Positions 2,027-17,223 of a DNA stretch of 64,000 bases are shown here, piece after piece. This DNA is from Streptomyces caniscabiei (GTDB lineage: Bacteria > Actinomycetota > Actinomycetes > Streptomycetales > Streptomycetaceae), in assembly GCF_014930365.1 (NCBI RefSeq), contig NZ_JABXWI010000011.1, forward strand, positions 276,289-340,288. The letters run 5' to 3'. Position 1 is the first letter of the stretch. Every line of letters begins with the position of its first letter. Both the position numbers and the translations under genes were made by a program. A model generated the notes under the pieces. The model was not told where the DNA came from. It saw nothing but the letters and a program-made list of their open reading frames with translations, and did not search any database.

Positions 2027-2048
2027 ATTTCTGTCGCCCGACAGGAAT
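2027..2048. promoter_or_regulatory. Probable TetR operator, copy 1 (permease promoter)
   Basis: Arms ATTTCTGTCG and CGACAGGAAT are separated by CC, a 10-bp inverted repeat with one mismatch. It matches the perfect palindrome at 12226-12247 between the TetR gene and the guanidine/urea operon, including the preceding CTA. It lies 55 bp before the permease start. Binding by the TetR protein encoded at 11447-12082 is inferred. Confidence 0.7.
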
Positions 2049-2103
2049 TCGCGCCGCTCGTGCGCGAATGCTCGCGCCGCTTGTGCGAAAGCAGGTTGCC
2101 GCC

Positions 2104-3621
2104 ATGACGAGCACTGCCCCCGACCTCCGTCCGGAGCCGCCCCACTCCCCCGACGACCGCTCGCTGACCGAGTTCGGCTACCCCCAGGAGCTGCACCGCA
2201 GCCTGAGCAGATACGCCTCGTTCGCCGCCGGTTTCTCCTTCATCTCGGTCCTCACGACCGTCTTCCAGTTCTTCGCCTTCGGCTACGCGTTCGGCGGCCC
2301 GGTCTTCTTCTGGACCTGGCCCGCCGTATTCGTCGGTCAATTGCTGGTGGCCGCCTGCTTCGCCGAACTCGCGGCGCGCTACCCGATATCGGGCTCGATC
2401 TACCAGTGGTCCACCCGCCTGTCGAACCGGACCTTCGGCTGGTTCGCCGGCTGGATCATGGTGATCGGGCAGATCGTGGTGGTCGCGGCGGCCGCGCTCG
2501 CGCTCCAGATGGTGCTGCCGGCGATCTGGTCGGGCTTCCAGCTCGTGGGCGGCGACCCGACGCCCACCTCGCCGACGGGCGCGGCGAACGCGGCCGTCCT
2601 GGGCGTGCTCCTGCTGGTGCTCACGACGTTCGTGAACGTCCTGGACAACCGGGTACTGTCCGTGGTCAACCGGGTGGGCGTGACCGCCGAGATCATCGGC
2701 GCCGTCCTGATCGTCGTCCTGCTGTTCACCCACTCCGAACGCTCCCCCGGCATCACGTTCCACATGGCCGAGGGCAGTACCGATCTGCTGGGTGCCCTGC
2801 TGGTGGGCTCGTTCATGGCGGCGTACGTGATGATCGGCTTCGACAGCGCGGGCGAGATGAGCGAGGAGACCCGCCATCCGCGCCGGACCGCACCCCGCAC
2901 GATCCTCACGGCCCTCGGCGCGGCCGGTCTGCTCGGCGGTCTGCTCGTCCTCGGCGGTCTGCTCGCCGCGCCGAGCCTGACCGACGGCAGGCTGGGCGTG
3001 GACGGCCTGAGTTATGTGCTGACCAGCAGCCTCGGTGACGGGGTGGGCCGCTTCCTGCTCGCCGACGTGGTGGTGGCGATCACCGTGGCCACGCTCGCGA
3101 TCCAGACGTCGGCCTGCCGCATGCTCTTCTCGATGGCCCGCGACGGTCAACTCCCCTTCGCCGGGCGGCTCGCCAAGGTCAACCCGCGCACCGGCATGCC
3201 CACCGCCCCCGCCCTGGTCGTCGGCGTCCTCGCGGCCGCCCTGCTGCTCCTCAACTTCGCCTCGCCGGAGGCGTTCCTGGCCATCGGCACCACCTGCATC
3301 GTGATGCTGTACCTGGCGTACGCGATGGTCACCGGCCCGCTGCTGATACGGCGTCTGAAGGGCGGGTTCCCCTCGGCCGGCACCGACGAGACCGGCGAGC
3401 CCCTCTTCTCCCTGGGCCGCTGGGGCGTCCCCGTCAACGCCCTCGCCCTGCTCTACGGCCTCTTCATGACCGTCAACCTGGCCTGGCCCCGAGCAGCCGT
3501 CTACGACCCGGCCGGCGGCCACTGGTGGTTCCAGTGGTTCACCGTGCTGTTCCTCCTGGTCACCGTCACCGCGGGCCTCGCCCACCGCCTCACGCACCGC
3601 CACCGCACGCGCTCCCGGTGA
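2104..3621 (+). CDS. APC-superfamily permease, probably the guanidine/urea-carboxylase-system permease
   Basis: A 505-residue integral membrane protein of the amino acid-polyamine-organocation superfamily, with about 12 hydrophobic segments and typical APC blocks (FGYAFGGPVFF, FAELAARYPISGSIYQW, SAGEMSEETRHPRR, MLFSMARDGQLPF). Length and sequence fit the permease group that accompanies urea/guanidine carboxylase clusters. The ATG at 2104 opens directly on a soluble N-terminus and the conserved frame; in-frame codons upstream lie inside the promoter. The promoter carries the same palindrome as the guanidine operon at 12273-19080, so I infer import of guanidine or a related nitrogen source for that pathway. 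The substrate is not proven by sequence. Confidence 0.85.
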   Translation: MTSTAPDLRPEPPHSPDDRSLTEFGYPQELHRSLSRYASFAAGFSFISVLTTVFQFFAFGYAFGGPVFFWTWPAVFVGQLLVAACFAELAARYPISGSIYQWSTRLSNRTFGWFAGWIMVIGQIVVVAAAALALQMVLPAIWSGFQLVGGDPTPTSPTGAANAAVLGVLLLVLTTFVNVLDNRVLSVVNRVGVTAEIIGAVLIVVLLFTHSERSPGITFHMAEGSTDLLGALLVGSFMAAYVMIGFDSAGEMSEETRHPRRTAPRTILTALGAAGLLGGLLVLGGLLAAPSLTDGRLGVDGLSYVLTSSLGDGVGRFLLADVVVAITVATLAIQTSACRMLFSMARDGQLPFAGRLAKVNPRTGMPTAPALVVGVLAAALLLLNFASPEAFLAIGTTCIVMLYLAYAMVTGPLLIRRLKGGFPSAGTDETGEPLFSLGRWGVPVNALALLYGLFMTVNLAWPRAAVYDPAGGHWWFQWFTVLFLLVTVTAGLAHRLTHRHRTRSR

Positions 3622-4358
3622 CGCGCGCCTCGCTCGGTACCACCACCACATCCCGCCTCGGCAGCTAGCCGCTTGCTCGGCCGGCACACAGGCCCGGCAC
3701 GGACGGCGCGCCGGGCAGAACGGGCCGGAGGGCCGCTCCACGCGCCGGGGTCGCACGCCCTTTCCGGCCGCACCGCGGCCATCGCATGGTGCCAAGTGGT
3801 GGGTCGTCAGGGCGGGTTGCCGTCGCGACAGGGGGCCGGGGTGAGAGAGCGTCCAACGGTGGCTCGTACACCTTTCGCAGGGGAGTGGCCTGTTTTCACC
3901 TGTGTCGCCCTAAATTCAAGCCAAACGGTTGACAAATCCCCATAGGGTTTCCCCGCCCGTCCTGCCGGACGGTCCGCCGAGGTTGACGCAGGACAGCGTG
4001 GAGCGGATGGTGGTTTGGAAGGTCAATTACCCGGAGAGCGTCCAGAGGAAGGCGGGGGCGATTCACGGCCCGGTCGTCGGCGGCTCGGCCGCGGCGGTGG
4101 TGATCACGGATTTTCTGCACCGTCCGTACGTCACCTCGGCGGTCATGGCCGACGACACCGCCAGGCACGCAGGCAACGAGGCCCCGTTCGACCGGTTCCG
4201 CCCAGCAAGCCGCAAGCCCAGTACGTCCGCAGGTCGGCGGTGCCGCGGTGGCAGCGTAGGGAGCACAGCGCGTCATTCGTGACCTGGTGGCGGCCGCACG
4301 CCGTCGACACAGGGCAGAGGGCGGTGCAGAGGCACGTCGTCACAGACAGGAGGCAGCC
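3622..4358. other. Gap without a recognised gene
   Basis: This 737-bp stretch separates the permease from the terpene synthase. I see no RNA gene, repeat or clear terminator. The only coding candidate is a plus-strand frame from ATG 4007 (or GTG 3998) to TGA 4282 with mostly G/C third positions and no recognised family; it is discussed as a finding rather than called a gene. The last 60 bases hold the terpene synthase ribosome-binding site. Confidence 0.6.
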
Positions 4359-5375
4359 GTGGCGGACACCTTCCAGATACCCTCGTTCTACATGCCGTTC
4401 CCGGCCAGGGTGAACCCTCATTTGGACGAGACCCGTCCACGCGTGCGCGCGTGGGCCCACTCCATGGGATTACTCGAACCGCAGCACACCGATTCGCACC
4501 ACGGCGGGTGGAGTGCCGAGATCTTCGACCGGGCGGACTTCACGCGCTTCACCGCCCTGACCTATCCGCACGCGTCGGCCCGTGAGCTGGAACTGCTGTC
4601 CGGCTGGCACAGTGTGATCTGGTGCCTCGACGACATCTTCCTGCCGTGGTGCGAGGCGCTCGGAAAGCGGGAGCAGATACTCGACCGCATAGAGCGTCTG
4701 ATGTCCTTCCTGCCGGTGACGGCGCACGCACCGGACTCGGGCCCGACTCCGAAGGAGCCGCTGGAACACGCGCTGGCGGACCTGTGGCGGCGCACCGCAC
4801 CCGCGGCGTCCCTCGGGTGGCAGTTCCTGTACACCAGGTCCATACGCCAGTTCCTGGAAGCCTCGCTGTGGGAGACGGAGAACCTGACCCGCCATCGGTT
4901 CCCCGACCTCATCGAGCAGACGGAGATGCGCCGTGACTACGGTGCGGCCGGATGCAGCGCCCTGCTGATGGAGCACTCGCTCGGCTGGGAGATAACCGAG
5001 GACATCCGCGCGACCCGCCCCTTCACCGTACTGATCAACGCGTTCCGGGACACCGTCGACCTGCACAACGACATCGTGTCCTACCCCAAGGAGGTGCGCG
5101 AAGGTGTCGCCAGGAACAACATCGTGCGCGTCACCCAGGAACTGCACGGCCTCCCCCTCCGTGAAGCGGTCTCGCTCGTCAACCACATCCTGACGGGCCG
5201 TGTCAGGACCCTGGAGGAGACGGTCGCGTCGGACCTCCCGCAGGCCCTGCACGATCTGCGGACGAGCCAGCACACCCAGCGCGCGGTGCTCCGCCATGCC
5301 AGGGCCATCCAGGGCTGGGCCGCGGGCTCCTACCGCTGGCACGAGGCCACCGACCGCTACCGGTGCGCCGCCTGA
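4359..5375 (+). CDS. Class I terpene synthase (sesquiterpene-cyclase-like)
   Basis: A 338-residue class I terpene cyclase that would ionise a linear prenyl diphosphate with Mg2+. The N-terminal start FQIPSFYMPFPARVNPH is like the germacradienol/geosmin-synthase group. The aspartate-rich motif reads DDIFLP at residues 91-96, the NSE motif NDIVSYPKE is complete at 237-245, and the C-terminal RY pair follows (YRWHEATDRYR). The usual acidic residue closing the first motif is a Pro here. The GTG start at 4359 is fixed by AGGAGG at 4348-4353; the open frame upstream has no homology. A P450 and conservon follow on the other strand. The product cannot be predicted. Confidence 0.88.
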   Translation: MADTFQIPSFYMPFPARVNPHLDETRPRVRAWAHSMGLLEPQHTDSHHGGWSAEIFDRADFTRFTALTYPHASARELELLSGWHSVIWCLDDIFLPWCEALGKREQILDRIERLMSFLPVTAHAPDSGPTPKEPLEHALADLWRRTAPAASLGWQFLYTRSIRQFLEASLWETENLTRHRFPDLIEQTEMRRDYGAAGCSALLMEHSLGWEITEDIRATRPFTVLINAFRDTVDLHNDIVSYPKEVREGVARNNIVRVTQELHGLPLREAVSLVNHILTGRVRTLEETVASDLPQALHDLRTSQHTQRAVLRHARAIQGWAAGSYRWHEATDRYRCAA

Positions 5376-5453
5376 CGCGACCGGCCCCGAGCCCGCTCGG
5401 AAGGGGAACCGGACGGCGCCCGCGCCGCCGGTCCCCTCGTACGCTTGACCGTG

Positions 5454-6419
5454 ATGAGACGCAGAAGTCCGGTCCCCCCTTCTCCCCTGCCGCAGCGCGA
5501 CGGGGTCGACCCGGTACGGGTCCGGCTGCCGCAGGCGGCGGCATGGGCGACCGTGCGTGATCACCTGGTGCAGCGGCTGGCGCCCGGGCCGGGCGTGATC
5601 GACGGCATGCTGGACGCGGGGCTGGTCGTGGACGTCGACGGGCGGGCCGTGGGGCGTGACACGGCGTATGTGCCGGGCATGTACGTGTGGTTCCACCGGG
5701 ACCTGCCGTACGAGGTTCCGGTGCCGTTCGCGCTGGACGTGGTGTACCGCGACGAGCATGTCGTCGTGGTCGACAAGCCGCACTTCCTGGCCACGACACC
5801 ACGCGGCAGCCATGTCGCCGAGACCGCGCTGGCCCGGCTCCGCCGCGAGCTGGGGCTGCCCTCGCTGGGCGCCGCCCACCGCCTGGACCGGCTGACCGCC
5901 GGGCTGGTGCTGTTCACGGTGCGACCCGAGGAGCGGGGCGCCTACCAGTCGCTGTTCCGCGACCGGCTCGTCACCAAGGAGTACGAGGCCGTCGCCCCGT
6001 ACGACCCGGCGCTCGCCCTTCCCCGCACCGTACGCAGTCGGATCGTGAAGGAACGCGGGGTGATGGCGGCCAGGGAGGTCGACGGCGAACCCAACGCGGT
6101 CAGTGGTGTGGAGCTGCTGGAGCGGCGGGACGACGGCCTGGCCCGCTACCGGCTGACACCTCGCACCGGGCAGACGCATCAACTGCGGGTGCACATGGCC
6201 GCCTTGGGCGTGCCGATCCTCGGTGACCCGCTCTACCCGGAGGTGCGGGACCCCGTGCCGGCCGACGACTTCGGACGTCCGCTGCAACTGCTGGCGCGGG
6301 CCCTGCGGTTCACCGATCCGGTCACGGGGCGCGAACACCGGTTCATGAGCGGGCGGGTGCTCCAGGCGTGGACGTCGTACGAGGAATGGGCGGGCACCCC
6401 GTACGACGCCCGGGCCTGA
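5454..6419 (+). CDS. RluA-family pseudouridine synthase
   Basis: A 321-residue RNA pseudouridine synthase of the RluA/RsuA superfamily, which isomerises uridine in rRNA or tRNA. An S4-like N-terminal region is followed by the catalytic domain with the conserved motif AAHRLDRLTAGLVLF, whose Asp is the nucleophile, then KEYEAVAPY and the C-terminal block TGQTHQLRVHMAALGVPILGD. No Shine-Dalgarno is visible. GTG 5451 and ATG 5454 follow a TACGCT hexamer (5440-5445) at the spacing expected for a leaderless transcript, so either codon may start. The gene ends 8 bp from the convergent P450. The target nucleotide is unknown. Confidence 0.88.
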   Translation: MRRRSPVPPSPLPQRDGVDPVRVRLPQAAAWATVRDHLVQRLAPGPGVIDGMLDAGLVVDVDGRAVGRDTAYVPGMYVWFHRDLPYEVPVPFALDVVYRDEHVVVVDKPHFLATTPRGSHVAETALARLRRELGLPSLGAAHRLDRLTAGLVLFTVRPEERGAYQSLFRDRLVTKEYEAVAPYDPALALPRTVRSRIVKERGVMAAREVDGEPNAVSGVELLERRDDGLARYRLTPRTGQTHQLRVHMAALGVPILGDPLYPEVRDPVPADDFGRPLQLLARALRFTDPVTGREHRFMSGRVLQAWTSYEEWAGTPYDARA

Positions 6420-6427
6420 GGGTTCGG

Positions 6428-7894
6428 CTATCGGCCGCTCATCCACAGCAGCACACGGCGCAGGAGACCGGGCCGGGCGGGCGGTTCGGCCGTGGTCGGC
6501 GCCGACCGCGCGGTCCCGGACGGGGCGGCGCCGGACACCGGGCACGCCGTGGCGGCCTGCTGTCCCGCACGCTGTGCCGGTACGGGACGGCCCAGGGGCC
6601 GCGGCTCCAGGACTTCCTTCTCCTTCGGCTCGAAGCGCACCGGGAGCGCGACCAGGTGACGGGTCGAGATCGAGGCCCGCCAACGCAGCTCGTGCTCCTC
6701 GCAGTTGAGCTGGATGTCGGGCAGACGCGCCAGCAGGGCGTCGACGCCGACATCGGCGATCGCTCGGCCCGTGTCCTGGCCCGGGCACTCGTGCGGGCCG
6801 CCGCCGAAGGCGAGATGGGAGCGGTTGCCCTGCATGTTGGCGGTGAGGTCGGGCCGTACCCGCGGGTCGACGTTGCCCGGCGCGATGCCGAAGAGGAGAC
6901 CGTCGCCCTTGCGGATCCGCCGGCCGCCCAGCTCCGTGTCCTGCTTGGCGAAGTAGGCGAGCTGCGTGCTGAACGGGGGCTCGTCCCACAGGGACTGCTC
7001 GACCGCCTCGGGCACCGTCATCTGGCCGCCCTTGAGCTGGGCGCGGAAGCCGGGGTTGGTGAGGACCACGCGCAGCACGTTGGCGAGGAGGTTGGTGGTG
7101 GCCTCGTACGCGGCGATGAGCACGACGCGCAGATGCTGGCTCACCTCCTCGTCGTTGAGCCCGGCCGGGTGGTTGATCAGGTGGCTGGTGAAGTCGTCCT
7201 GCGGGTTCGCCCTGCGGCGGGCGGTGAGTCCCATCAGGGCTTCCATGATGTAGGCGTTGCTGGCGATCGCCGTCTCGGTGCCCTTGAGCATGTCGCGGGC
7301 GGCGTGCACGATCCGGTCGTTGTACTCCTCGGGCATGCCCAGGATCTCGCACATCACCGCCATCGGCAGATGCTCGGCGAACTGGCTGACGAGGTCCGCC
7401 TCGCCCTCCTCGCAGAACTCGTTGACGAGCTGCTGGGTGTAGCGGTTGATGCTGCGGCGGATGCCGCGGAAGTTGATGGTCGACATGGCGCCGGTGACCG
7501 CGCCGCGCAGCCGCAGGTGCTCGTCGCCCTCGGCGTGGCAGCAGATGGGCTGCCACGCGATGTGCGGCATCAGCGGGTTGTCGGGCTTGAACGTGCCGTC
7601 CTGGAGCTTGTTCCACAGACGGGTGTCCCGGGAGTACTGCGACGGCGTACTCACCATGTGCAGGTTCTCGCCGTGTCCCAGCACCACCCAGATGGGTACG
7701 TCGTCGTGGAGCAGGGCGGGGGCCACCGAGCCGTGCTCCGCGCGGAGCTTTTCGTACACGGCTCCCAGGTCCTCTGCCTCGGGGCCGTACAGGCGGCGGA
7801 GCCCGTCGGCGCCCGCGCCGTGGGCGGGGCAACCCGGGGGCGGCCCGAGCGTGGGGTCGTCCGTGCCGGTCAGGGACTTCGATTCAGGCGTCAC
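6428..7894 (-). CDS. Cytochrome P450, CYP157-like, conservon-associated (ExxR-less)
   Basis: A 488-residue P450 at the end of the conservon operon, the position of rarE in the S. coelicolor cvn9/rarABCDE operon. The heme loop is FGGGPHEC with Cys370, and the I-helix is AAYEATTN (261-268). The K-helix ExxR motif is replaced by EQSLW at 299-303 (bases 6986-7000), the signature of the CYP157 family. About 70 residues follow the catalytic domain and are Ala/Pro-rich, ending LLRRVLLWMSGR, possibly a peripheral membrane anchor. The GTG at 7894 starts the conserved frame; longer frames upstream overlap cvnD antisense-like sequence. The natural substrate is unknown and catalysis itself is uncertain. 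Confidence 0.9.
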   Translation of the reverse strand: MTPESKSLTGTDDPTLGPPPGCPAHGAGADGLRRLYGPEAEDLGAVYEKLRAEHGSVAPALLHDDVPIWVVLGHGENLHMVSTPSQYSRDTRLWNKLQDGTFKPDNPLMPHIAWQPICCHAEGDEHLRLRGAVTGAMSTINFRGIRRSINRYTQQLVNEFCEEGEADLVSQFAEHLPMAVMCEILGMPEEYNDRIVHAARDMLKGTETAIASNAYIMEALMGLTARRRANPQDDFTSHLINHPAGLNDEEVSQHLRVVLIAAYEATTNLLANVLRVVLTNPGFRAQLKGGQMTVPEAVEQSLWDEPPFSTQLAYFAKQDTELGGRRIRKGDGLLFGIAPGNVDPRVRPDLTANMQGNRSHLAFGGGPHECPGQDTGRAIADVGVDALLARLPDIQLNCEEHELRWRASISTRHLVALPVRFEPKEKEVLEPRPLGRPVPAQRAGQQAATACPVSGAAPSGTARSAPTTAEPPARPGLLRRVLLWMSGR

Positions 7895-7998
7895 GGTGAT
7901 CGCTTTCGAACTGAGGTGGATCCGGTGTCTGAGGTGATGGGGGAGCGCGGGGATGCGGAGCGGGCTCCGCGGCACGCGCGCGGGGGCGCGCGCGCCGG

Positions 7999-8637
7999 TC
8001 AGGCCGTGGCCGCCCCCGGTGCCGCCGCCCCCGACATGGCCAGGGAGTGCAGGAAGGTCATGAGGGTCATCAGGACGTCCCGGCTGGACGCCCGGCGGCG
8101 GACGTCGCAGCGGATGATCGGGATCTCCGCGGCCAGGTCGAGCGCCTGGCGCAGTTCGTCGACGGCGTAGCGGGGCGCGTCGGGGAAGTCGTTGACGGCC
8201 ACGACGAAGGGCACACCGCGTTCCTCCAGGCGGCCCATGACGTCGAAGCTGACCTCCAGCCGGCGGGTGTCGACCAGGACCACCGCCCCGAGGGCGCCCT
8301 CGAACAGGCCGTTCCACAGGAACCAGAAGCGCTCCTGCCCGGGGGTGCCGAACAGATAGAGCACCAGCTCGTCGGTGATGCTGATGCGGCCGAAGTCCAT
8401 GGCCACGGTGGTGGCCGTCTTGGACTTGGAGCCGAAGTTGTCGTCGACCCCGATGCCGGCCTGGGTCATGGTCTCCTCGGTCGTCAGCGGCCTGATCTCG
8501 CTGACGGACCCCACCATGGTCGTCTTGCCGACGCCGAAACCGCCCACGATCACGATCTTCGCCGCGGCCTGTGCGGTGTGCGGCAGGTGGTCCTCGGTCC
8601 GTGGACCCGTGATGGTGTCAGAGCTTTTGAAGTCCAT
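7999..8637 (-). CDS. cvnD: Conservon GTP-binding protein CvnD
   Basis: A 212-residue small GTPase-like protein. The P-loop reads GGFGVGKTT, the G3-like box FGTPGQERF, and the base-specificity region VVAVNDF. In characterised conservons CvnD is the GTPase of a membrane-associated complex with CvnA, CvnB and CvnC that resembles a receptor-coupled G protein and tunes development and antibiotic production. It overlaps cvnC by 20 bp (translational coupling). A 104-bp gap separates it from the P450 downstream on the same strand. By position relative to the helicase and tat genes this is probably the counterpart of rarD (cvnD9). Confidence 0.93.
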   Translation of the reverse strand: MDFKSSDTITGPRTEDHLPHTAQAAAKIVIVGGFGVGKTTMVGSVSEIRPLTTEETMTQAGIGVDDNFGSKSKTATTVAMDFGRISITDELVLYLFGTPGQERFWFLWNGLFEGALGAVVLVDTRRLEVSFDVMGRLEERGVPFVVAVNDFPDAPRYAVDELRQALDLAAEIPIIRCDVRRRASSRDVLMTLMTFLHSLAMSGAAAPGAATA

Positions 8638-9067
8638 GCATCACCGCTTCGAGGAGGGAACGGTCTGCCCGCGCCTGCTTGACGACCGGTGCGCGCGCCT
8701 GAACCAGTTCGGCCGTCAGCAGCTCGGTGAGCAGGACGGTCACCACGCTGATCGGCAGGTTGAGATAGGCCGAGATCTCGGCCACGGACAGGGGGGCCTG
8801 GCAGATCCGCAGCAACGCCGACTGCTCCGGAGCGGCGGACGGCGGCGGATCGGCACGCGCCACGATTAACGTGACGAGGTCGATCGGTGCTCGCTCGCCG
8901 TCCGCGCCGGTGAGGATGTAGAGCCGCTCGGGCGGCCGGCCGCCCGACCCGCCGCCGGCGTCCTCCCCCTCGGACGGCGAGGACGGCGACGGCGGCGAGG
9001 ACGGCAGGGGTGGCGGGGGCGAGGGCTCGTGCTTGGGCTGGCGCCGTCGGCGTTGCGGAGGCGTCAT
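8618..9067 (-). CDS. cvnC: Conservon DUF742 protein CvnC
   Basis: A 149-residue DUF742 protein. The first ~55 residues are basic and Pro/Ser/Gly-rich (low complexity), followed by the conserved domain starting RLYILTGADGERAPIDLVTLI, with a winged-helix-like part (LSVAEISAYLNLPISVVTVLL). In the conservon model it bridges CvnA/CvnB and the GTPase. It overlaps cvnB by 4 bp (ATGA) and cvnD by 20 bp. Confidence 0.92.
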   Translation of the reverse strand: MTPPQRRRRQPKHEPSPPPPLPSSPPSPSSPSEGEDAGGGSGGRPPERLYILTGADGERAPIDLVTLIVARADPPPSAAPEQSALLRICQAPLSVAEISAYLNLPISVVTVLLTELLTAELVQARAPVVKQARADRSLLEAVMHGLQKL

Positions 9068-9471
9068 ACGGTCTGCCCGTTCCGCCGCGGCGGACTGGTG
9101 AGGTGGGAGCCGATCCGGTCGACGAGGTCGCGCATGCGGTTGCTCATCAGGCCGGGTTCGGCGACCTCGTTGGCGAGCACCGCGAGATAGGCGTTGGCTC
9201 CGGCGGCCATCATGTAGAAGTAGCCGCCGTTGATCTCGATGATGACCATCCGCATGTGGCCGTCGCTGTGCGGGATCTCACCGGCCACGGCGCCGGCCAG
9301 GCTCTGCAGTCCCGCGCAGGCGGCGGCGACCCGGTCGGCGGCGTCCGGGTCGCCGCCGTGGCGGGCGATCCGCAGGCCGTCGGCGGAGAGCACGACGATC
9401 TGCTGGATACCGGGTACGCCGTCGGCCAGATCCTTCAGCAGCCAGTCGAAATTGGCTCGTTGCTGGATCAC
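9064..9471 (-). CDS. cvnB: Conservon roadblock/LC7 protein CvnB
   Basis: A 135-residue roadblock/LC7-domain protein (DWLLKDLADGVPGIQQIVVLSADGL, DAADRVAAACAGL), of the fold of MglB-type GTPase regulators. It starts at GTG 9471 inside the GTGA overlap with the cvnA stop codon. The coupled arrangement cvnA-B-C-D implies co-translation of the complex. Its likely job is to modulate the CvnD GTPase; no enzymatic motif is present. Confidence 0.93.
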   Translation of the reverse strand: MIQQRANFDWLLKDLADGVPGIQQIVVLSADGLRIARHGGDPDAADRVAAACAGLQSLAGAVAGEIPHSDGHMRMVIIEINGGYFYMMAAGANAYLAVLANEVAEPGLMSNRMRDLVDRIGSHLTSPPRRNGQTV

Positions 9472-11105
9472 TTGAGGTCCCCCTCGTCGTCGGCCTCGGT
9501 GCGGGCCGGCTCGGTGTTCGCGGTGAGAGCGGTGGACGCCGTCGGGTCGTCCGGGTTCCGTCGGGCGTTCGGGTCGGGATCGCCCTTGAGCCCGGCCATG
9601 AACGCCTCGACCCACATGCCGGGCGGCGGCAGCTCCTTCTCCGGTTCGGGCTCCGGCTGCCACACGGGGGCGGCGGCCATGGCGGCCTCGGCGGCGGCCT
9701 CCGCGGCGGCGGCCTCGGCGTAGCGCTGGCTCAGCGGGATCTTGCTGCGGCTGCGGCGCTGCGGCAGGCCGTTGGCGGTCCACTCGGTGACGACGGGAAC
9801 GTCGTCCTCCATGTCCCGGCTCATCTCCTCCGCGGAGCTCGGGATCCGCGGGCCGGTGGTGGGGCGGCGGCGCTTGGGCTTGCGGTCGGGGCCCGCGACG
9901 CCGCCGTTGTCGATGGTCGTCACGGCGCCGGCGCCGATGCCGTGCGCGAGGCCGGGGGCGGGTTCGTCGGTCAGCAGGTCGCGGGGCACGACGATCACGG
10001 CGCGGACGCCGCCGTAGGCGGAGGGCCGCAGCGAGACGTGCATCTTGTACATGGTCGACAGACGGCCCACGACGGCGAGGCCGAGACGCGGGGTGTCGCC
10101 CATCTCCTGGATGTCCACGCCCTGCTGCGCCTTGGCGAGCATGTCCTCGACCTTGGCGCGGCTCTCCTCGCTGAGGCTGATGCCGCCGTCCTCGATCTCG
10201 ATGGCGATGCCGGTCTGCACCTCCACGGCGGTGACGTGCACCTTGGTGTGGGGCGGCGAGTAGCGGGTGGCGTTGTCGAGGAGTTCGGCGCAGGCGTGGA
10301 TGACCGGCTCGACGCCGACGCCGTTGACGTTGACCTTGGCGATCGATTCGAGCTCGATGCGGCGGTACTCCAGGATGCGGGACATGGCGCCGCGCAGCAC
10401 GCTGTAGAGCGGGACGGGCCGGGACCACACACGGCCGGGGCGGCTGCCGCCGAGGACGGCGATGGAGTCGGCGAGGCGGCCGATCAGGGCGGTGCCGTGG
10501 TCGATGCGCAGCAGGTCGTCGAAGACCTCGGGGTTGCGCCCGTGGTCCTCCTCCATCTCGCGGAGTTCGTTGTTCTGCTGGTGCACGATCGCCTGGACGC
10601 GGCGGGCGATGTTGACGAACGACCGCTGCGAGGAGTCGCGCAGTGCTTCCTCGCGGTCGACGATGGTGAGCAGGGTGCGCAGCAAGTCGCGCTGGGATTC
10701 CGGAAGTTCGCGCCACTCGGCGTCACCGTCGACGACGTGACGAATCACCTCTGAGGGGGATTCTCCGGTGCGCAGCCGGTACAGGGCGGCGGGCAGGATC
10801 TCCTTGCCCAACCGGATGAATTCCTGGTCGTGGGCGGCGATCCGCTGCTCGAGGAAGGCGGTCCGCCGCTGCTGTTCGGCGCGCAGTTCGCGGACCGTAC
10901 GGCGGCCGCCGCGCACGGCGACGACGGCGACCGTGAGCAGCAGGAGCGTCGCGACGGCTCCGCACAAGCCGACGGCGAGCCGGGCCGGTCCCGTCACCAG
11001 GGAGACGGTGGTCCCGGTCGCCGCGGCCATCAGTATCGCCGGTAGCGGCAGCACGCGCGCGTAGGGAAGTTCACGGCCACCGGGAGGCGATTGAACACTC
11101 ACCAT
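9468..11105 (-). CDS. cvnA: Conservon sensor-like ATP-binding membrane protein CvnA
   Basis: A 545-residue protein. Two N-terminal hydrophobic segments (about residues 20-65) are followed by a helical linker and a GHKL ATPase domain with N-box ELLDNATRYSPP, an EDGG G1-like box and a glycine-rich LGLAVVGRL box. No HisKA phospho-acceptor His is seen, as in other CvnA proteins. The last ~150 residues are charged and Ala/Pro-rich. The start ATG 11105 has an AGAGGG upstream. It heads the operon cvnABCD-P450 and by gene order should be rarA/cvnA9, whose S. coelicolor mutants are altered in aerial development. The ligand is unknown. Confidence 0.93.
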   Translation of the reverse strand: MVSVQSPPGGRELPYARVLPLPAILMAAATGTTVSLVTGPARLAVGLCGAVATLLLLTVAVVAVRGGRRTVRELRAEQQRRTAFLEQRIAAHDQEFIRLGKEILPAALYRLRTGESPSEVIRHVVDGDAEWRELPESQRDLLRTLLTIVDREEALRDSSQRSFVNIARRVQAIVHQQNNELREMEEDHGRNPEVFDDLLRIDHGTALIGRLADSIAVLGGSRPGRVWSRPVPLYSVLRGAMSRILEYRRIELESIAKVNVNGVGVEPVIHACAELLDNATRYSPPHTKVHVTAVEVQTGIAIEIEDGGISLSEESRAKVEDMLAKAQQGVDIQEMGDTPRLGLAVVGRLSTMYKMHVSLRPSAYGGVRAVIVVPRDLLTDEPAPGLAHGIGAGAVTTIDNGGVAGPDRKPKRRRPTTGPRIPSSAEEMSRDMEDDVPVVTEWTANGLPQRRSRSKIPLSQRYAEAAAAEAAAEAAMAAAPVWQPEPEPEKELPPPGMWVEAFMAGLKGDPDPNARRNPDDPTASTALTANTEPARTEADDEGDLK

Positions 11106-11446
11106 GTATGCCCTCTAAAGACGGTTCGGCTGATGGTCGGGGGACTGGCGGGGAGTTGCTGGAGGTTGCTCGGGTTCATCCATGCGTCAAACTGGTTCTT
11201 CGGTATTTTTTGGAACAAGCGCCCGAATACATCTCAACTCGGTGCGCTGCGGGCGAGCTTAGTCCGACCGGATCATCGCTGTGTCATATTCAGCAACCGA
11301 CTGAAATCACCCTCGCGACAGGAGTACGCTCTGTCATTTACACGCCGGGTCGCCGTTCGTACACGCCGAGTAACGGCGAACGGGCGTACGGGAAAAGCCT
11401 CTTGACAGGGTGAATCGACCTCCGGGAAGGAGACCGAGGCGGTCCG
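11106..11446. other. Upstream region of the conservon operon
   Basis: A 341-bp non-coding stretch between the cvnA start and the convergently placed end of the TetR gene. It is noticeably less G+C-rich than its surroundings (for example around 11195-11245), as expected for a promoter region. I cannot assign -35/-10 boxes with confidence and see no RNA gene. Confidence 0.5.
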
Positions 11447-12082
11447 TCAGACCCCGGCGATGCGCAGCGCCGCGTCCGCCGTCGCCTCCGCGAAGGCGGA
11501 GACGGGGCGGTCGGGCTCCGAGCGGTGGACGAGGATGACGCCCTCGATCAGCCCGAAGACGAGATCCGTCCGCAGCTCCAGCTCGCTCTTGGCGAGCGTC
11601 CCGCCCACGGCCGTCGCGGCGATCAACTGCCGGTAGGCGTCCTTGAGTTCGGCCCGTACGGCGTGGAAGCCGGCGAAGCGCTCGGCGCGGACCTCCGGCA
11701 GGAGGTAGAGGCCGCCGAGGTTGTGCGGGCCGCCGCAGAGCAGGGCCACGTCGGCGCGGCACAGCTCCCACAACCGCTCCTCGGCGGGGACGGCGTCCCG
11801 GGCCAGGAGGTCACGGGCACAGGTCAGCGACGGCGTGACGGTGGACTCCAGCAGCCCGGCGAGCAGCTCCTCCTTGCCGGACACGTAGTGGTACATGGAC
11901 GCCTGCCGCATGCCGGCGCGCTCGGCGACCGCACGGGTGGTGGTGGCCGCGTACCCCCGCGTCGTGAACAACTCCGCGGCGGCGGCGAGCAGTTCGTCCC
12001 TGGGCGACAGCCCGCTCTCCGGCCGGCCCTCGGCACGCGGTCTGCCGACCCGCCGGCCACCGCCGCCACCCGCGCTTCCCAT
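11447..12082 (-). CDS. TetR-family repressor of the guanidine/urea operon
   Basis: A 211-residue TetR-type regulator. The N-terminal helix-turn-helix is clear (LLAAAAELFTTRGYAATTTR, then VAERAGMRQASMYHYVSGKEEL) and the C-terminal ligand domain is of ordinary length. It is divergent from the DUF1989/carboxylase operon, and the 190-bp interval between them holds a perfect 10-bp inverted repeat at 12226-12247. I use ATG 12082; an in-frame ATG at 12163 is possible but adds only low-complexity residues. It probably represses the operon, itself, and the permease at 2104, with guanidine or a pathway intermediate as the likely inducer (inference). Confidence 0.87.
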   Translation of the reverse strand: MGSAGGGGGRRVGRPRAEGRPESGLSPRDELLAAAAELFTTRGYAATTTRAVAERAGMRQASMYHYVSGKEELLAGLLESTVTPSLTCARDLLARDAVPAEERLWELCRADVALLCGGPHNLGGLYLLPEVRAERFAGFHAVRAELKDAYRQLIAATAVGGTLAKSELELRTDLVFGLIEGVILVHRSEPDRPVSAFAEATADAALRIAGV

Positions 12083-12225
12083 GTGTTCGATCCTCGCACA
12101 CGGCACCCGGCCACCGGCGAGACCCGACGCCCTGTTCCCCCGCCCCCGGCCAGGCCCGACCATCGTGAGAGAGCGGTAACCACCCGGCAACGCGAGGGAC
12201 ATGGCGTCGACGCGCCCCGCTCCTA

Positions 12226-12247
12226 ATTTCTGTCGCACGACAGAAAT
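12226..12247. promoter_or_regulatory. TetR operator, copy 2 (guanidine/urea operon)
   Basis: A perfect palindrome: arms ATTTCTGTCG and CGACAGAAAT around CA. It sits 26 bp before the first structural gene and in the divergent promoter region of the TetR gene, a typical autoregulatory position. The same element is found at 2027-2048. Confidence 0.78.
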
Positions 12248-12272: not shown

Positions 12273-13097
12273 ATGGCGACATCGACGACGTACGGAGCAC
12301 GTGATCACGCCCGCGCACAGGAGGGCGCCCGGACCGAGTCCATGCCCGTGGTGCCCGCGACCGACTGGCCCTCCCCTCCCTGCGAACCCGAGCGGCTGGT
12401 CTGGGCGGAGACCGTGGCGGGCGGCAGCTACACGCACCGGGTGCTCGCCCGCGGCACCGAGGTCCGGCTGACCGACCTGCGCGGCGACGCCTGCGCGCAT
12501 CTGCTGCTGCACCACGCCGACCGCCCCTGGGAGCGGCTGAACGTGGCCGACACCGTCAAGGTCCAGTGGAACGCCTACCTGGGCGAGGGCGTCCTGCTGC
12601 TGTCCGACCAGGGCCGTGTCCTGGCCTCGGTGGTCGCCGACACCTCGGGCCGCCACGACGCCCTGTGCGGCACCTCCACCCTGGCGCGCAACACCGAGCG
12701 GTACGGGGACGGCACCCCGCACTCCGCCTCCCCCGCCGGGCGTGAACTGTTCAAGCTGGCCGCCGCCAAGAACGGCCTGGAACCCCGGGACCTGCCGCCC
12801 TCGCTCTCCTTCTTCCAGGGGGTCCGGGTACACGAGGACGGCACCCTCGACTTCACCGGCTCCGCCGGCCCCGGCGCCGCCGTGACCCTCCGTACCGAGC
12901 AGGACGTGACCGTGCTGATCGCCAATGTGCCCCACCCGGCCGACCCGCGCCCCGAGTACGTCAGCACCCCGCTGGAGGTGCTCGCCTGGCGCGCCGAGCC
13001 GACCCGCCCCGGCGACCCCCTGTGGGACGCCTCGCCCGAGGGCCGCCGGGCCTTCCTGAACACCGCCGAGTTCCTCACCGCGAGGGGGCGCGCATGA
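12273..13097 (+). CDS. DUF1989 urea carboxylase-associated protein (long form), carboxyguanidine deiminase subunit
   Basis: A 274-residue member of the DUF1989 family, matching the longer of the two urea carboxylase-associated proteins. Typical pieces are EHARAQ-like YGARDHARAQEGAR at the N-terminus, RLTDLRGDACAHLLLHHAD, DTVKVQWNAYLGEG, DTSGRHDALCGT with candidate metal ligands, and ISV-like FFQGVRVHEDGTL. Family members work as a heteromeric deiminase converting carboxyguanidine to allophanate and ammonia in guanidine breakdown. ATG 12273 has GGAGG at 12261-12265. It overlaps the next gene by 4 bp (ATGA), so the two subunits are likely co-translated. Confidence 0.87.
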   Translation: MATSTTYGARDHARAQEGARTESMPVVPATDWPSPPCEPERLVWAETVAGGSYTHRVLARGTEVRLTDLRGDACAHLLLHHADRPWERLNVADTVKVQWNAYLGEGVLLLSDQGRVLASVVADTSGRHDALCGTSTLARNTERYGDGTPHSASPAGRELFKLAAAKNGLEPRDLPPSLSFFQGVRVHEDGTLDFTGSAGPGAAVTLRTEQDVTVLIANVPHPADPRPEYVSTPLEVLAWRAEPTRPGDPLWDASPEGRRAFLNTAEFLTARGRA

Positions 13098-13699
13098 GCA
13101 CGACGACCGTGGTCGCGGCCCGCGCCGCCTGGTCGTCGGTGATCCGCGCCGGCCAGACCCTCACCCTCACCGACCTGCACGGCAACCAGGCCGTCGACTT
13201 CCTCGTGTACGACGCCCACGACACGGCCGTCCGCTACAGCGCGCCCGACACGATCCACGCCCAGGGCGGCATCTTCCTCACCACCGGCAGTGTGCTGATG
13301 TCCAACGAGCACACCCCGCTGATGACCGTGACCGCCGACGACGTGGGCCGGCACGACACCGTCGGCGGCGCCTGCTCCAAGGAGTCGAACACCCTGCGGT
13401 ACGGGCACCACACCTGGTCGCAGCACGCCTGTGTGGACAACTTCCTCGCCGAGTGCGCCCGGCACGGCCTCGGCAAGCGCGACCTGGTGTCGAACATCAA
13501 CTGGTGCATGAACGTGCCGGTCGAGAAGGACGGCACCCTCGGTATCGTCGACGGGATCTCCGCCCCCGGTCTCGCCGTCACCCTGCGCGCCGAACGCGAC
13601 GTGCTGGTCCTGGTCTCCAACTGCCCCCAGATCAACAACCCCTGCAACGGATTCGAGCCGACGGCCGTGGAGATGACGATCACCGGGACGGGCACATGA
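13094..13699 (+). CDS. DUF1989 urea carboxylase-associated protein (short form), carboxyguanidine deiminase subunit
   Basis: A 201-residue DUF1989 protein, paralogous to its upstream neighbour: LTDLHGNQAVDFLVYDAHD, MTVTADDVGRHDTVGGACS, and NINWCMNVPVEKDGTLGIVDG. The Cys/His/Asp pattern VGRHDTVGGACS parallels SGRHDALCGTS in the partner. Together they should form the heteromeric deiminase step. ATGA overlaps exist at both ends (13094-13097 and 13696-13699), giving strict translational coupling to the carboxylase. Confidence 0.88.
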   Translation: MSTTTVVAARAAWSSVIRAGQTLTLTDLHGNQAVDFLVYDAHDTAVRYSAPDTIHAQGGIFLTTGSVLMSNEHTPLMTVTADDVGRHDTVGGACSKESNTLRYGHHTWSQHACVDNFLAECARHGLGKRDLVSNINWCMNVPVEKDGTLGIVDGISAPGLAVTLRAERDVLVLVSNCPQINNPCNGFEPTAVEMTITGTGT

Positions 13700-16600
13700 C
13701 CTTCGACACCCTGCTGGTCGCGAACCGGGGCGAGATCGCCGTCCGGATCATCCGCACCGCCCGCGAACTGGGCCTGCGCACGATCGCGGTGTACTCCGAC
13801 GCCGACCGCGCCGCCGCCCACGTGCGGCTCGCCGACGAGGCGGTACGGCTCGGCCCGGCGCCCGCGAAGGAGTCGTACCTCGACGCGGACCTGATCCTGA
13901 AGGCCGCCAAGGACACCGGCGCGGGTGCCGTCCATCCCGGGTACGGGTTCCTCTCCGAGGACGCCGACTTCGCCCGCCGCTGCGCGGAGGCCGATCTCGT
14001 GTTCGTCGGCCCCACCGCCGACCAACTGGAGCTGTTCGGCGCCAAACACACCGCGCGGGCGGCGGCCGAGGCCGCGGGCGTGCCCCTCCTGCCCGGCACC
14101 GACCTGCTCGACTCGCTCGACGAGGCGCTCGCCCACGCCGCGGCCATCGGCTACCCGGTGATGCTCAAGGCCAGCGGCGGAGGCGGCGGTATCGGCATGT
14201 CGGCATGCCGATCCGCGGGCGAACTCACCGAGGCCTGGGACCGGGTGCGGCGCGTCGCCGCCGCCTCCTTCGCCACGGCGTCCTCCTCGGGCGTCTACCT
14301 CGAACGCCTCGTCGAGCGGGCCCGCCATGTCGAGGTGCAGGTCTTCGGCGACGGCGACGGCCTCGTCGTCACCTTCGGCGACCGCGACTGCACCCTCCAG
14401 CGCCGCAACCAGAAGGTCGTCGAGGAGGCCCCGGCCCCCGGCCTGCCCGACCACGTCCGCGCACGGCTGACCGCCGCCGCCCGCGATCTGTGCGCGAGCG
14501 TCGAGTACCGCTCCGCCGGAACGGTCGAGTTCGTGTACGACGCCGCGCGCGAGGAGGCGTACTTCCTGGAGGTCAACACCCGCCTCCAGGTGGAGCATCC
14601 GGTCACCGAGGAGGTCTACGGCGTCGACCTCGTCGCCTGGATGCTGCGGCTGGCCCGCGGCGACGTCGCCGTCGTCCGCGCCCCGGGCCCGCCGCGCGGC
14701 CACGCCGTCGAGGCCCGGCTCTACGCCGAGGACCCCAGCCGTGGACACCGGCCGAGCGCGGGCCTGTTGACCCGGGTCGAGTTCCCGCCGGGCGTCCGCG
14801 TCGACGGCTGGGCGGAGACGGGCACCGAGGTCACCACGTCGTACGACCCGCTGCTGGCGAAGATCGTCGCGTACGGCTCCGACCGCGCCCACGCCCTGCG
14901 CCGGCTCGACGAGGCGCTGGCGAGGACCCGGGTCGACGGCATCGAGACGAACCTGGGCCAGCTCCGGGCGGCCCTCACCGACCCGGACGTCCGGCGGGCC
15001 ACCCACTCCACGGCGACCCTCGCCGCCGTCACCGACCCGACCCGCCGCATCGAGGTCCTCTCCGGCGGCACCCTCACCACCGTCCAGGACTGGCCCGGCC
15101 GCACCGGCCACTGGCAGGTCGGCGTCCCGCCCAGCGGCCCCATGGACGACCTGTCCTTCCGCCTCGGCAACCGGGCGCTGGGCAACCCCGAGGGCGCCCC
15201 GGGCCTCGAATGCACCCTCCAGGGCCCCTCCCTGCGCTTCACGCACGCCACCACCGTCTGCGTGACGGGTGCCCCCGCCCCGGTGACCGTGGACGGCTCA
15301 CCGATCGCCCGCTGGGAACCGGTGAGGGTACCCGCCGGAGCCGTCCTGTCCGTCGGCGCGCCCACGGAACACGGACTGCGCACCTACGTCCTCGTCGCGG
15401 GCGGCGGCCTGGACGTCCCGTCGTTCCTGGGCAGCGCGGCCACGTTCACCCTCGGCCGCTTCGGCGGCCACGGCGGCCGTGCCCTGCGCACGGGCGACGT
15501 CCTGCACGGCGGCGAGGTCACGGACCGCACGGGCCCCGTCCCCCCGGAGGACCGCCCCTCCTTCCCCGCCGACTGGCAGGTGGCCGTCCTCGAAGGCCCG
15601 CACGCGGCACCGGAGTTCTTCACCGAGGAGGACATCCACGAGTTCTACGCGGCCGACTGGACGGTCCACTTCAACTCGGCCCGCACCGGCGTACGGCTCG
15701 TCGGGCCCAAACCCCGCTGGGCGCGCGCCGACGGCGGCGAGGCGGGCCTGCACCCCTCCAACATCCACGACACCCCGTACTCGGTCGGCGCCGTCGACTA
15801 CACGGGCGACATGCCGGTCCTCCTCGGCCCCGACGGCCCCTCCCTCGGCGGCTTCGTCTGCCCGGCCACGGTCGTCTCCACCGAGCGCTGGAAGCTCGGC
15901 CAGCTGCGCCCCGGAGACACCGTCCGCTTCCTCCCCGTCTCGGACGACGCCTCACCCCGCCCCGCGATCGTCGACGGCGGCGTCCTGGCCCGCGACGGCG
16001 ACGTGACGTACCGCCGCAGCGGCGACGACAACCTCCTCGTCGAGTTCGGACCGATGCGGCTCGACCTGGCCCTGCGGATGCGCGTCCACGCCCTGATGGA
16101 GGCGGTCGCCGAGGCGGGCCCGCACGGCGTCGCCGACCTCACCCCGGGCATCCGCTCCCTCCAGATCCGCATCGACCCGGCGCTGCTCCCCCAGCCCGAA
16201 CTCCTCACGGCGGTACGCCGGATCGTGGCGTCCCTCCCCCCGACGGACGAACTGGTCGTCCCCTCCCGCACGATCCACCTCCCCCTCTCCTGGGACGACC
16301 CCGCGACCCGCGAGGCCATCGCCCGCTACATGGCGGGCGTCCGCGACGACGCCCCCTGGTGCCCCTGGAACATCGAGTTCATCCGCCGCGTCAACGGCCT
16401 GGACACGGTGGCCGACGTCCACGACACGGTCTTCGCCGCCGAGTACCTGGTCCTGGGCCTCGGGGACGTCTACCTGGGCGCCCCGGTGGCGACCCCGCTG
16501 GACCCCCGCCACCGCCTGGTGACCACGAAGTACAACCCGGCCCGCACCTGGACGGCGGAGAACTCGGTCGGCATCGGCGGCGCCTACCTCTGCGTCTACG

Positions 16601-17223
16601 GCATGGAGGGACCCGGCGGTTACCAGTTCGTCGGCCGCACCACCCAGGTCTGGTCCCCCTGGCAGCAGCGCGGCGCCTTCGAGCCCGGCTCCCCGTGGCT
16701 GCTGCGCTTCTTCGACCGCATCAGGTGGTACCCGGTGGACGCCGACGAACTCATGGCCCTGCGCGCGGACATCGTCTCGGGCCGCTTCGTCCCCCGCGTG
16801 GAACAGGGCACGTTCTCCCTGGCCGCGTACGAGACGTTCCTCACCGAACACGCCGACTCCATAGCCGAGTTCAGGACCAGGCAACAGACGGCGTTCGCGG
16901 CGGAGAGGGCCGCCTGGGAGGCCGCCGGCGAGTTCGACAGAGCGGAGACGGGGACGGCCGAGCCGGTACCGCCCGCCGAGGTCCACGTGCCCGAAGGCGC
17001 CCACCTGATCGAGGCCGAGTTCACGGCGTCGGTCTGGCAGGTGAACGTCCGACCGGGCGACCGGGTGACCACCGGCCAGCCCCTCCTGACCCTGGAGGCC
17101 ATGAAGATGGAGTCCCGAGTCCCCTCCCCCACGGCCGGCGTCATAGACCGGATCCTCACCGTCCCGGGCACCCAGGTGGCCCCAGGCACCCCCCTGATCA
17201 TCCTGACCCCGGACAACACCTGA
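13696..17223 (+). CDS. Biotin-dependent guanidine/urea carboxylase
   Basis: A 1175-residue single-chain biotin enzyme. Domains in order are biotin carboxylase (residues 1 to about 445: LLVANRGEIAVRIIRTARE, AVHPGYGFLSED, a GGGGGIGMS loop, EVNTRLQVEHPVTEE), two carboxyltransferase lobes of KipA type (TTVQDWPGRTGHWQVGVPPSG) and KipI type (GDDNLLVEFG), and a C-terminal biotin carrier domain with EAMKMES, biotinyl Lys1137. Length and order match urea carboxylase/urea amidolyase large subunits. With two DUF1989 partners the favoured substrate is guanidine, giving carboxyguanidine at ATP cost; urea cannot be excluded from sequence alone. ATG 13696 overlaps the previous stop. Confidence 0.92.
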   Translation: MTFDTLLVANRGEIAVRIIRTARELGLRTIAVYSDADRAAAHVRLADEAVRLGPAPAKESYLDADLILKAAKDTGAGAVHPGYGFLSEDADFARRCAEADLVFVGPTADQLELFGAKHTARAAAEAAGVPLLPGTDLLDSLDEALAHAAAIGYPVMLKASGGGGGIGMSACRSAGELTEAWDRVRRVAAASFATASSSGVYLERLVERARHVEVQVFGDGDGLVVTFGDRDCTLQRRNQKVVEEAPAPGLPDHVRARLTAAARDLCASVEYRSAGTVEFVYDAAREEAYFLEVNTRLQVEHPVTEEVYGVDLVAWMLRLARGDVAVVRAPGPPRGHAVEARLYAEDPSRGHRPSAGLLTRVEFPPGVRVDGWAETGTEVTTSYDPLLAKIVAYGSDRAHALRRLDEALARTRVDGIETNLGQLRAALTDPDVRRATHSTATLAAVTDPTRRIEVLSGGTLTTVQDWPGRTGHWQVGVPPSGPMDDLSFRLGNRALGNPEGAPGLECTLQGPSLRFTHATTVCVTGAPAPVTVDGSPIARWEPVRVPAGAVLSVGAPTEHGLRTYVLVAGGGLDVPSFLGSAATFTLGRFGGHGGRALRTGDVLHGGEVTDRTGPVPPEDRPSFPADWQVAVLEGPHAAPEFFTEEDIHEFYAADWTVHFNSARTGVRLVGPKPRWARADGGEAGLHPSNIHDTPYSVGAVDYTGDMPVLLGPDGPSLGGFVCPATVVSTERWKLGQLRPGDTVRFLPVSDDASPRPAIVDGGVLARDGDVTYRRSGDDNLLVEFGPMRLDLALRMRVHALMEAVAEAGPHGVADLTPGIRSLQIRIDPALLPQPELLTAVRRIVASLPPTDELVVPSRTIHLPLSWDDPATREAIARYMAGVRDDAPWCPWNIEFIRRVNGLDTVADVHDTVFAAEYLVLGLGDVYLGAPVATPLDPRHRLVTTKYNPARTWTAENSVGIGGAYLCVYGMEGPGGYQFVGRTTQVWSPWQQRGAFEPGSPWLLRFFDRIRWYPVDADELMALRADIVSGRFVPRVEQGTFSLAAYETFLTEHADSIAEFRTRQQTAFAAERAAWEAAGEFDRAETGTAEPVPPAEVHVPEGAHLIEAEFTASVWQVNVRPGDRVTTGQPLLTLEAMKMESRVPSPTAGVIDRILTVPGTQVAPGTPLIILTPDNT

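Follow-up and report, generated by a model that had tools for sequence, protein, structure and literature searches.

Introduction

The TetR-family repressor AmtR has been associated with a recurrent set of genes in actinobacteria: a permease, a carboxylase, an amidase and AmtR itself have been tabulated together for ten actinobacteria including Streptomyces avermitilis, in which the permease gene stands apart (PMC4222082). AmtR of Mycobacterium smegmatis has a binding site before the permease gene, and an amtR mutant expresses the permease, carboxylase and amidase genes more strongly; the repressor has a small regulon under GlnR and its gene is not co-localized with its targets (PMC4222082). 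The AmtR box of Corynebacterium glutamicum is CTAT-N6-ATAG, and for S. avermitilis and others a 22-bp consensus, TAtCTGTCa-n2-cGACAGATAT, is given and credited to Chen et al. 2013 (PMC8864220). As far as their available text goes, both papers treat the set as an AmtR urea or nitrogen regulon without a small effector. The same carboxylase pathway also occurs in carboxylase and guanidinase operons under guanidine riboswitches, and Nitrospira inopinata likewise uses an APC permease, there together with a guanidinase (PMC11410670). Here we describe a window of 64,000 nucleotides from Streptomyces caniscabiei (contig NZ_JABXWI010000011.1, positions 276,289 to 340,288 of the forward strand; coordinates below are those of this whole stretch), in which one palindrome stands both before an APC permease gene and between a TetR-family gene and an operon of two DUF1989 proteins, a carboxylase and an allophanate hydrolase. 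We hold with considerable confidence that the two parts represent a split operon for the import and breakdown of guanidine, with AmtR on both boxes and GlnR-type activation of both promoters; in contrast to the RNA control of the riboswitch operons, a protein repressor apparently serves here.

The locus shares with the AmtRsav regulon of S. avermitilis the repressor family, the 22-bp box and a permease gene (sav6709) apart from those of the carboxylase (sav6698), the amidase (sav6697) and AmtR (sav6701). A regulon of this composition under a TetR-type operator had been proposed from the window sequence alone. Because the permease/carboxylase/amidase set is already tabulated with AmtR, including that of S. 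avermitilis, the regulon is known in substance, and the original prediction missed both that the repressor is AmtR and that its regulon had been described (PMC4222082, PMC8864220). Apart from the different species, what is added here is the guanidine reading, a composite GlnR/AmtR promoter, the finding that the permease operator is consistently asymmetric, and a probable history of the split. A guanidine substrate, the operator asymmetry and a GlnR-type box at fixed distance are absent from the available text of PMC8864220 and PMC4222082, and Chen et al. 2013 on AmtRsav may contain part of these features.

Two operators and their predicted repressor

The operator on the side of UAAP1, the first DUF1989 gene, is a perfect palindrome of 10+2+10 bases (ATTTCTGTCGCACGACAGAAAT; 12226-12247, plus strand) in the intergenic region from which amtR and UAAP1 diverge. 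That of the permease promoter (ATTTCTGTCGCCCGACAGGAAT; 2027-2048, plus strand) has one mismatch and is asymmetric, its permease-proximal half reading GACAGGAAT. Both are preceded by CTA (2024-2026 and 12223-12225), and the permease operator lies 55 bp before the ATG of its gene at 2104, so that the claim of one palindromic operator at two loci is confirmed in the sequence. Searching with the pattern ATTTCTGTCGNNCGACAGAAAT and up to three mismatches over its 20 fixed bases, with the backward pattern as control, found the window to contain two matches, where 100 shuffles gave an expectation of 0.00. These two places are also the only matches in the whole source genome (10,932,736 bases in 73 contigs), where the backward pattern gave none, and the many unrelated copies named beforehand as an argument against a shared operator did not appear.

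Both palindromes contain the core of the published AmtR consensus, CTGTC-N4-GACAG, with slightly different flanks, and both are predicted to be AmtR boxes. The single "mismatch" of the permease operator is a conserved feature: GACAGG replaces GACAGA in the permease-proximal half of 19/19 permease operators and in 0/22 UAAP1 operators of the Streptomyces-type loci introduced below. Each operator is overlapped by a TAATTT motif in conserved columns (2025-2030, within CCCTAaTTT, and 12224-12229, both on the plus strand), which may represent the −10 element.

The TetR-family gene itself (11447-12082, minus strand) encodes a repressor of 211 amino acids. In a sequence search of the PDB, the six top matches were all AmtR entries (E values from 6.3e-36 to 1.1e-29), headed by M. 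smegmatis AmtR (5e57; MSMEG_4300), with the next match at 9.8e-12. A structural model built from 29 aligned homologues (pLDDT 91.3) again matched 5e57 best (Z 22.5, rmsd 2.3, 187 aligned residues, 43% identity), and the next four structures were entries of C. glutamicum AmtR (Z 19.1-20.9), so that the top five are all AmtR. Judged by sequence and modelled fold, the protein is thus an AmtR whose closest solved relative represses a permease, a carboxylase and an amidase (PMC4222082), and the CTGTC-N4-GACAG box at its presumed targets and its linkage to the genes for the permease, the DUF1989 pair, the carboxylase and the amidase accord with this assignment. With C. glutamicum AmtR (5dxz, 5dy0, 5dy1, 5mqq) it has in common the fold, an RQAS motif within the DNA-binding domain and a similar box geometry. 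However, at least 35 genes are regulated in C. glutamicum (PMC4222082), compared to two sites in this genome. The many operators over nitrogen genes that characterize such a global AmtR were not found, there being two places within three mismatches of the 20 fixed bases, a limit beyond which no looser boxes were searched genome-wide.

Conservation of the operators

The operator pattern was applied to 120 genomes, 73 of them from the same genus (source genome included in both numbers). Matches occurred in 27/120 genomes and in 22/73 of the same genus, 17 of which carry two. From related genomes, 57 stretches were fetched on the basis of searches for the pattern, for TetR, for UAAP2 and for riboswitches. 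Counting the window, the Streptomyces-type loci among them have the box before UAAP1 in 22/22 cases and before the permease gene in 19/19 cases where that region is covered; the pattern search had brought in 20 of these 22 loci, and the TetR search led to the same 20 genomes. That search gave 29 same-genus hits, including the source, of which 24 show operon genes in the examined stretch and all 24 have the box, while the remaining five show neither operon genes nor box in their 20-kb stretch.

Outside this group, nine distant loci (L081-L089) carry permease, UAAP1, UAAP2, carboxylase, hydrolase and AmtR genes as one apparent operon with a single box before the permease gene (9/9). A sample of 346 genomes of the phylum contained UAAP2 above its cut-off in 12, and in nine of these a box with at most one core mismatch lies at the operon. 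A public scan for ATTTCTGTCRNNYGACAGAAAT, covering one genome per species and partly overlapping the 120-genome set, returned at least 119 stretches. Among the 119 matches listed, the site lies within 500 bp upstream of UAAP1 in 99, of the permease gene in 10 and of a TetR/AmtR gene alone in 5, i.e. 114 together; the other five, from Anaerovibrio, Tractidigestivibacter, a Leptospiraceae MAG (metagenome-assembled genome), bacterium OL-1 and an Ignavibacteria MAG, lie near none of these genes. Overall, one TetR-type operator ties the permease gene to the DUF1989/carboxylase/allophanate hydrolase operon, and it does so in further Streptomyces as well as in more distant relatives.

These counts bear on two other explanations of the palindromes. 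Short palindromes do arise by chance, as the five isolated matches in the scan illustrate; with 0.00 expected in shuffles, only two occurrences in 10.9 Mb and a position conserved in 22 and 19 loci, we give practically no credence to the idea that the two in the window are coincidental. It is also very improbable that another TetR-family protein or another regulator binds the palindrome and the adjacent AmtR has other targets. This view can draw on the fact that the pairing of AmtR and palindrome is predicted from sequence, and on box-bearing loci in which no AmtR gene lies 500 bp or less from the box (e.g. L121, L132 and L173). It is countered by the identity of the box core with the published one (PMC8864220), by the joint presence of the box and an AmtR with 64% identity or more in 20/20 same-genus genomes from the TetR search with operon genes nearby, and by the absence of a box from the 20-kb stretch of five genomes that have such an AmtR and no operon genes there.

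Five Streptomyces genomes (L090-L094) have an AmtR relative (68-72% identity) whose 20-kb stretch contains no gene of the guanidine operon. No AmtR-like box was detected in these stretches and no common upstream palindrome was evident; in four of the five, the gene adjoins a pseudouridine synthase gene. In genome G090, one AmtR gene relative is itself preceded by two AmtR-type boxes, and its 20-kb stretch lacks the guanidine genes (L079); the operon of this genome lies elsewhere, together with a second AmtR relative (L080), and no box was found there. In a locus of the Nocardia carnea type, a transporter of the sodium/solute symporter family (L078:8980-10509) occupies the position of the APC permease between AmtR box and UAAP1; apparently, the transporter was exchanged and the operator retained.

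Genes under the operators and their probable substrate

The APC-family permease (2104-3621, plus strand; Pfam AA_permease_2), a probable guanidine importer, matches best the NCBIfam model TIGR03428 ("permease, urea carboxylase system") with 650.8 bits, which is below the curated cut-off of 740.45 for membership and well above the next model (178.0). The genes behind the second operator all encode proteins above the curated NCBIfam cut-offs: UAAP1 (12273-13097; TIGR03425, 315.7 bits, cut-off 205.95), UAAP2 (13094-13699; TIGR03424, 328.7 bits, cut-off 284.7), a biotin-dependent carboxylase named urea carboxylase (13696-17223; TIGR02712, 1799.9 bits) and an allophanate hydrolase (17422-19080; TIGR02713, 704.1 bits; Pfam Amidase and AH_C), all on the plus strand, with 4-bp overlaps between UAAP1 and UAAP2 and between UAAP2 and the carboxylase gene. 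Proteins of the UAAP1/2 type are, as we assume, carboxyguanidine deiminases, so that UAAP1 and UAAP2 are probably the two subunits of such an enzyme; the title of a 2020 paper in Biochemistry fits this role.

In an alignment with K. lactis urea amidolyase (5i8i), Asp701 of the carboxylase falls on Asn1330, a position that we take, residue number included, to be the one at which the two substrates are told apart. According to the published rule, Asp marks guanidine carboxylases and Asn urea carboxylases (PMC12186494). Asp is present in 35/36 carboxylases from our loci that cover the position (exception L099, Ile) and, among the matches listed in the second, partly overlapping set from the public scan, in 70/71 (exception L197, Asn). 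We therefore predict that the enzyme is a guanidine rather than a urea carboxylase, and the operon holds the further parts of the guanidine carboxylase pathway, i.e. both DUF1989 subunits and the allophanate hydrolase. Of the earlier label "guanidine/urea operon" only the first half is retained, since Asp, as in guanidine carboxylases, and not the Asn of urea enzymes stands at this position.

A urea operon, in which the carboxylase acts on urea and the DUF1989 proteins are accessory, would agree with the database names (TIGR02712, urea carboxylase; TIGR03424 and TIGR03425, urea amidolyase associated proteins) and with the Asn of the one box-bearing relative L197. Against it stand the Asp at the specificity position, the presumed deiminase function of the DUF1989 pair and the lack of effect of urea on DNA binding by M. 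smegmatis AmtR (PMC4222082), and altogether we consider it improbable. The exceptional locus, from Kitasatospora sp. DSM 101779, has an AmtR box, AmtR and UAAP1/2, yet a carboxylase with Asn, and thus offers a natural test case for both substrate and effector.

A probable composite GlnR/AmtR promoter

Beyond the operators of the original prediction, both promoters bear a GlnR-type box, a point that it did not contain. The published GlnR consensus is gTnAc-n6-GaAAc (PMC10704036). On the plus strand, a GlnR-type box GTAAC-N6-GCAAC (12176-12191), exact to the form GTNAC-N6-GNAAC, starts 50 bp before the UAAP1 operator, and GTGAC-N6-GACAC (1999-2014), with one mismatch to that form, starts 28 bp before the permease operator. 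At −50 from the UAAP1 operator, the pattern is exact in 18/22 loci and has at most one mismatch in 22/22; for the permease operator, exact matches at −28 occur in 11/19 loci and matches within one mismatch in 18/19, and in the remaining locus (L065), which has two operator copies, the pattern stands at −48 from the better one. When random 110-mers from the same loci were scored at any position, 18/2100 contained it exactly and 102/2100 with at most one mismatch. Among the matches listed in the second set, the pattern was exact at −50 in 78/95 and within one mismatch in 86/95, and at twelve other offsets it was never exact and within one mismatch in 0 to 3 of 94; the neighbouring positions on an 11-bp grid, −61 and −39, were left out of these control offsets. 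Additional half-boxes do lie on this grid, such as GTGAG upstream of the UAAP1 box (12165-12169), and both promoters have GTGAG at −61.

The homologous permease, carboxylase and amidase genes of M. smegmatis depend on GlnR (PMC4222082), and from the fixed boxes we infer that GlnR would act on both promoters here as well. AmtR bound to the two boxes would cover the start region of each promoter and shut off two transcription units, that of the APC permease and that of UAAP1, UAAP2 and the carboxylase plus the following allophanate hydrolase, while the global nitrogen regulator, bound just upstream of each AmtR box, would activate both promoters under nitrogen limitation. Expression would therefore require low nitrogen as well as release of AmtR, which amounts to a two-input logic in a composite promoter. 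The products would import guanidine, carboxylate it, deiminate the resulting carboxyguanidine and hydrolyze allophanate to ammonia and CO2.

A number of points weigh against this interpretation. With regard to the repressor, direct binding of AmtR to the boxes and repression by it, both shown in M. smegmatis (PMC4222082), are predictions for this organism. The backward control pattern is not entirely silent, since it matches in 2/120 genomes (G034 and G113), and in three genomes (G046 and G054 of the same genus, and the distant G118) the operator pattern has only a three-mismatch match near none of the genes; those of G054 and G046 (L096, L097) belong to one orthologous region and look like a relic or chance. 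The Streptomyces loci are related, so that their counts are counts of non-independent events, and three of the 12 UAAP2-positive genomes (L080, L098 and L099) lack a box with at most one core mismatch by the operon. Regarding GlnR, the form searched, in which the half-box GaAAc is relaxed to GNAAC, was chosen after inspection of the window; the single-operon relatives are without the GlnR-type box (exact in 0/9, one mismatch in 3/9), as are the loci from Microbacterium, Agromyces, Cellulomonas and Salinibacterium (L173, L207, L226 and L232). Regarding the pathway, the allophanate hydrolase gene is preceded by a gap of 198 bp and no box of its own, to which the permease score below its cut-off and the deviating carboxylases with Ile (L099) and Asn (L197) have to be added.

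What may release AmtR

An alignment of 37 AmtR proteins (22 Streptomyces-type, 9 from single operons and 6 others; all except L079 with operon genes in the stretch) revealed that D111, Y126, P129, F139, R143 and E180 are invariant (37/37) and that 36 of the proteins retain E130 and N121. All of these residues are found in M. smegmatis AmtR, while C. glutamicum AmtR has Ile at 130, Met at 180, Glu at 111 and Tyr at 139. For a cation, for example guanidinium, but not for urea, acidic residues in the ligand domain would be appropriate, depending on how they are oriented. We tentatively suggest, as an idea that may easily turn out to be wrong, that AmtR of Streptomyces and its relatives is a guanidine-responsive factor in which guanidinium, held by E130, E180 and perhaps D111, would free both operators. 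The five orphan AmtR relatives (L090-L094) also keep E130 and E180, and conservation of these two residues is therefore not specific to linkage with the operon.

Alternatively, AmtR may sense no small molecule here and be freed by the adenylylated PII protein GlnK, which we regard as a reasonable possibility, if short of an even chance. GlnK-dependent derepression is reported for C. glutamicum, for which no small effector is known according to the text available (PMC8864220), and neither urea nor different amino acids at 0.5-5 mM affected binding by, or released, M. smegmatis AmtR (PMC4222082). On the other hand, nitrogen control of these genes in M. smegmatis is kept without AmtR and lost without GlnR (PMC4222082), so that AmtR need not carry the nitrogen signal. 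Moreover, the glutamates conserved in our alignment and in M. smegmatis AmtR are missing from the C. glutamicum protein for which GlnK release was proposed, although the orphans keep both too, and guanidine is absent from the effectors named as tried on M. smegmatis AmtR in the available text of PMC4222082. As releasing signals, guanidine or a pathway intermediate on one side and GlnK on the other are ranked about equal.

The guanidine reading of the pathway in any case suggests the first effector to try on a repressor so far treated as part of urea and nitrogen control. If guanidine sensing were true, AmtR would possibly be the first guanidine-sensing transcription factor, a protein counterpart of the guanidine riboswitch; no earlier claim of a guanidine-sensing AmtR was found in the literature searched, with most subscription journals outside its coverage. 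Among four Rfam matches with E values up to 5 in window positions 1-24000 there was no guanidine riboswitch, and 18 loci chosen from the 119 matches listed gave no Rfam match at the gathering score. The source genome does contain a guanidine-III riboswitch elsewhere (C11:166560-166635; 41.3 bits, cut-off 36), and the gene directly after it (riboswitch and gene at L105:2561-2636 and L105:2649-2984, source contig C11) encodes an SMR transporter of the SugE/Gdx type, with 119.3 bits against a cut-off of 126. An SMR gene likewise follows guanidine-III in 11/11 fetched loci, out of 45 guanidine-III places found. Nine of the 12 UAAP2-positive genomes have guanidine-III somewhere, one of them (G090) below the cut-off. 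In none of the 12 does it lie within 300 kb of the UAAP2 operon on the same contig, and no guanidine-I match was obtained, in genome-wide searches for guanidine-I and -III whose strict filters lose weak matches. This suggests a division of labor in these actinobacteria, with guanidine-III riboswitches serving export and AmtR together with GlnR serving import and assimilation.

Probable history of the split locus

The genes for permease and AmtR are both visible in 19 other Streptomyces-type loci. In six of these they adjoin or lie within about 2 kb, and in 13 they are separated, as in the window, by a pseudouridine synthase gene and a conservon (kinase, roadblock, DUF742 and GTPase-like proteins). 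The window's terpene synthase (4287-5375) was found in none of these 19 loci, and a weak match (22%) to it in L067, a contig without the permease. Of the proposal that a conservon and a terpene cluster split the regulon, the conservon is thus borne out in other genomes and the terpene synthase is not; the latter, between permease and AmtR, is probably a later insertion.

The boxes of the nine single-operon relatives carry CCTGTC/GACAGG in both halves (6/9) or in one half (3/9), and because of this the permease operator looks intermediate. Sequence comparison suggests that the two operators probably derive from one ancestral operon with a single operator, which was rearranged and then spread apart, leaving one operator to each half; we infer the order of these events from the comparison of present-day loci.

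The N-formylglutamate amidohydrolase gene beyond the permease operator (1792 down to 956) had been put forward as a possible further member of the regulon. It was rejected, as it had no match in the 46 loci compared and was found in 0/16 other Streptomyces-type loci showing at least 1.6 kb beyond that operator. At the opposite end of the locus, just downstream of the allophanate hydrolase gene, the window contains an IS4/5-type transposase fragment (DUF4096; 19254-20042).

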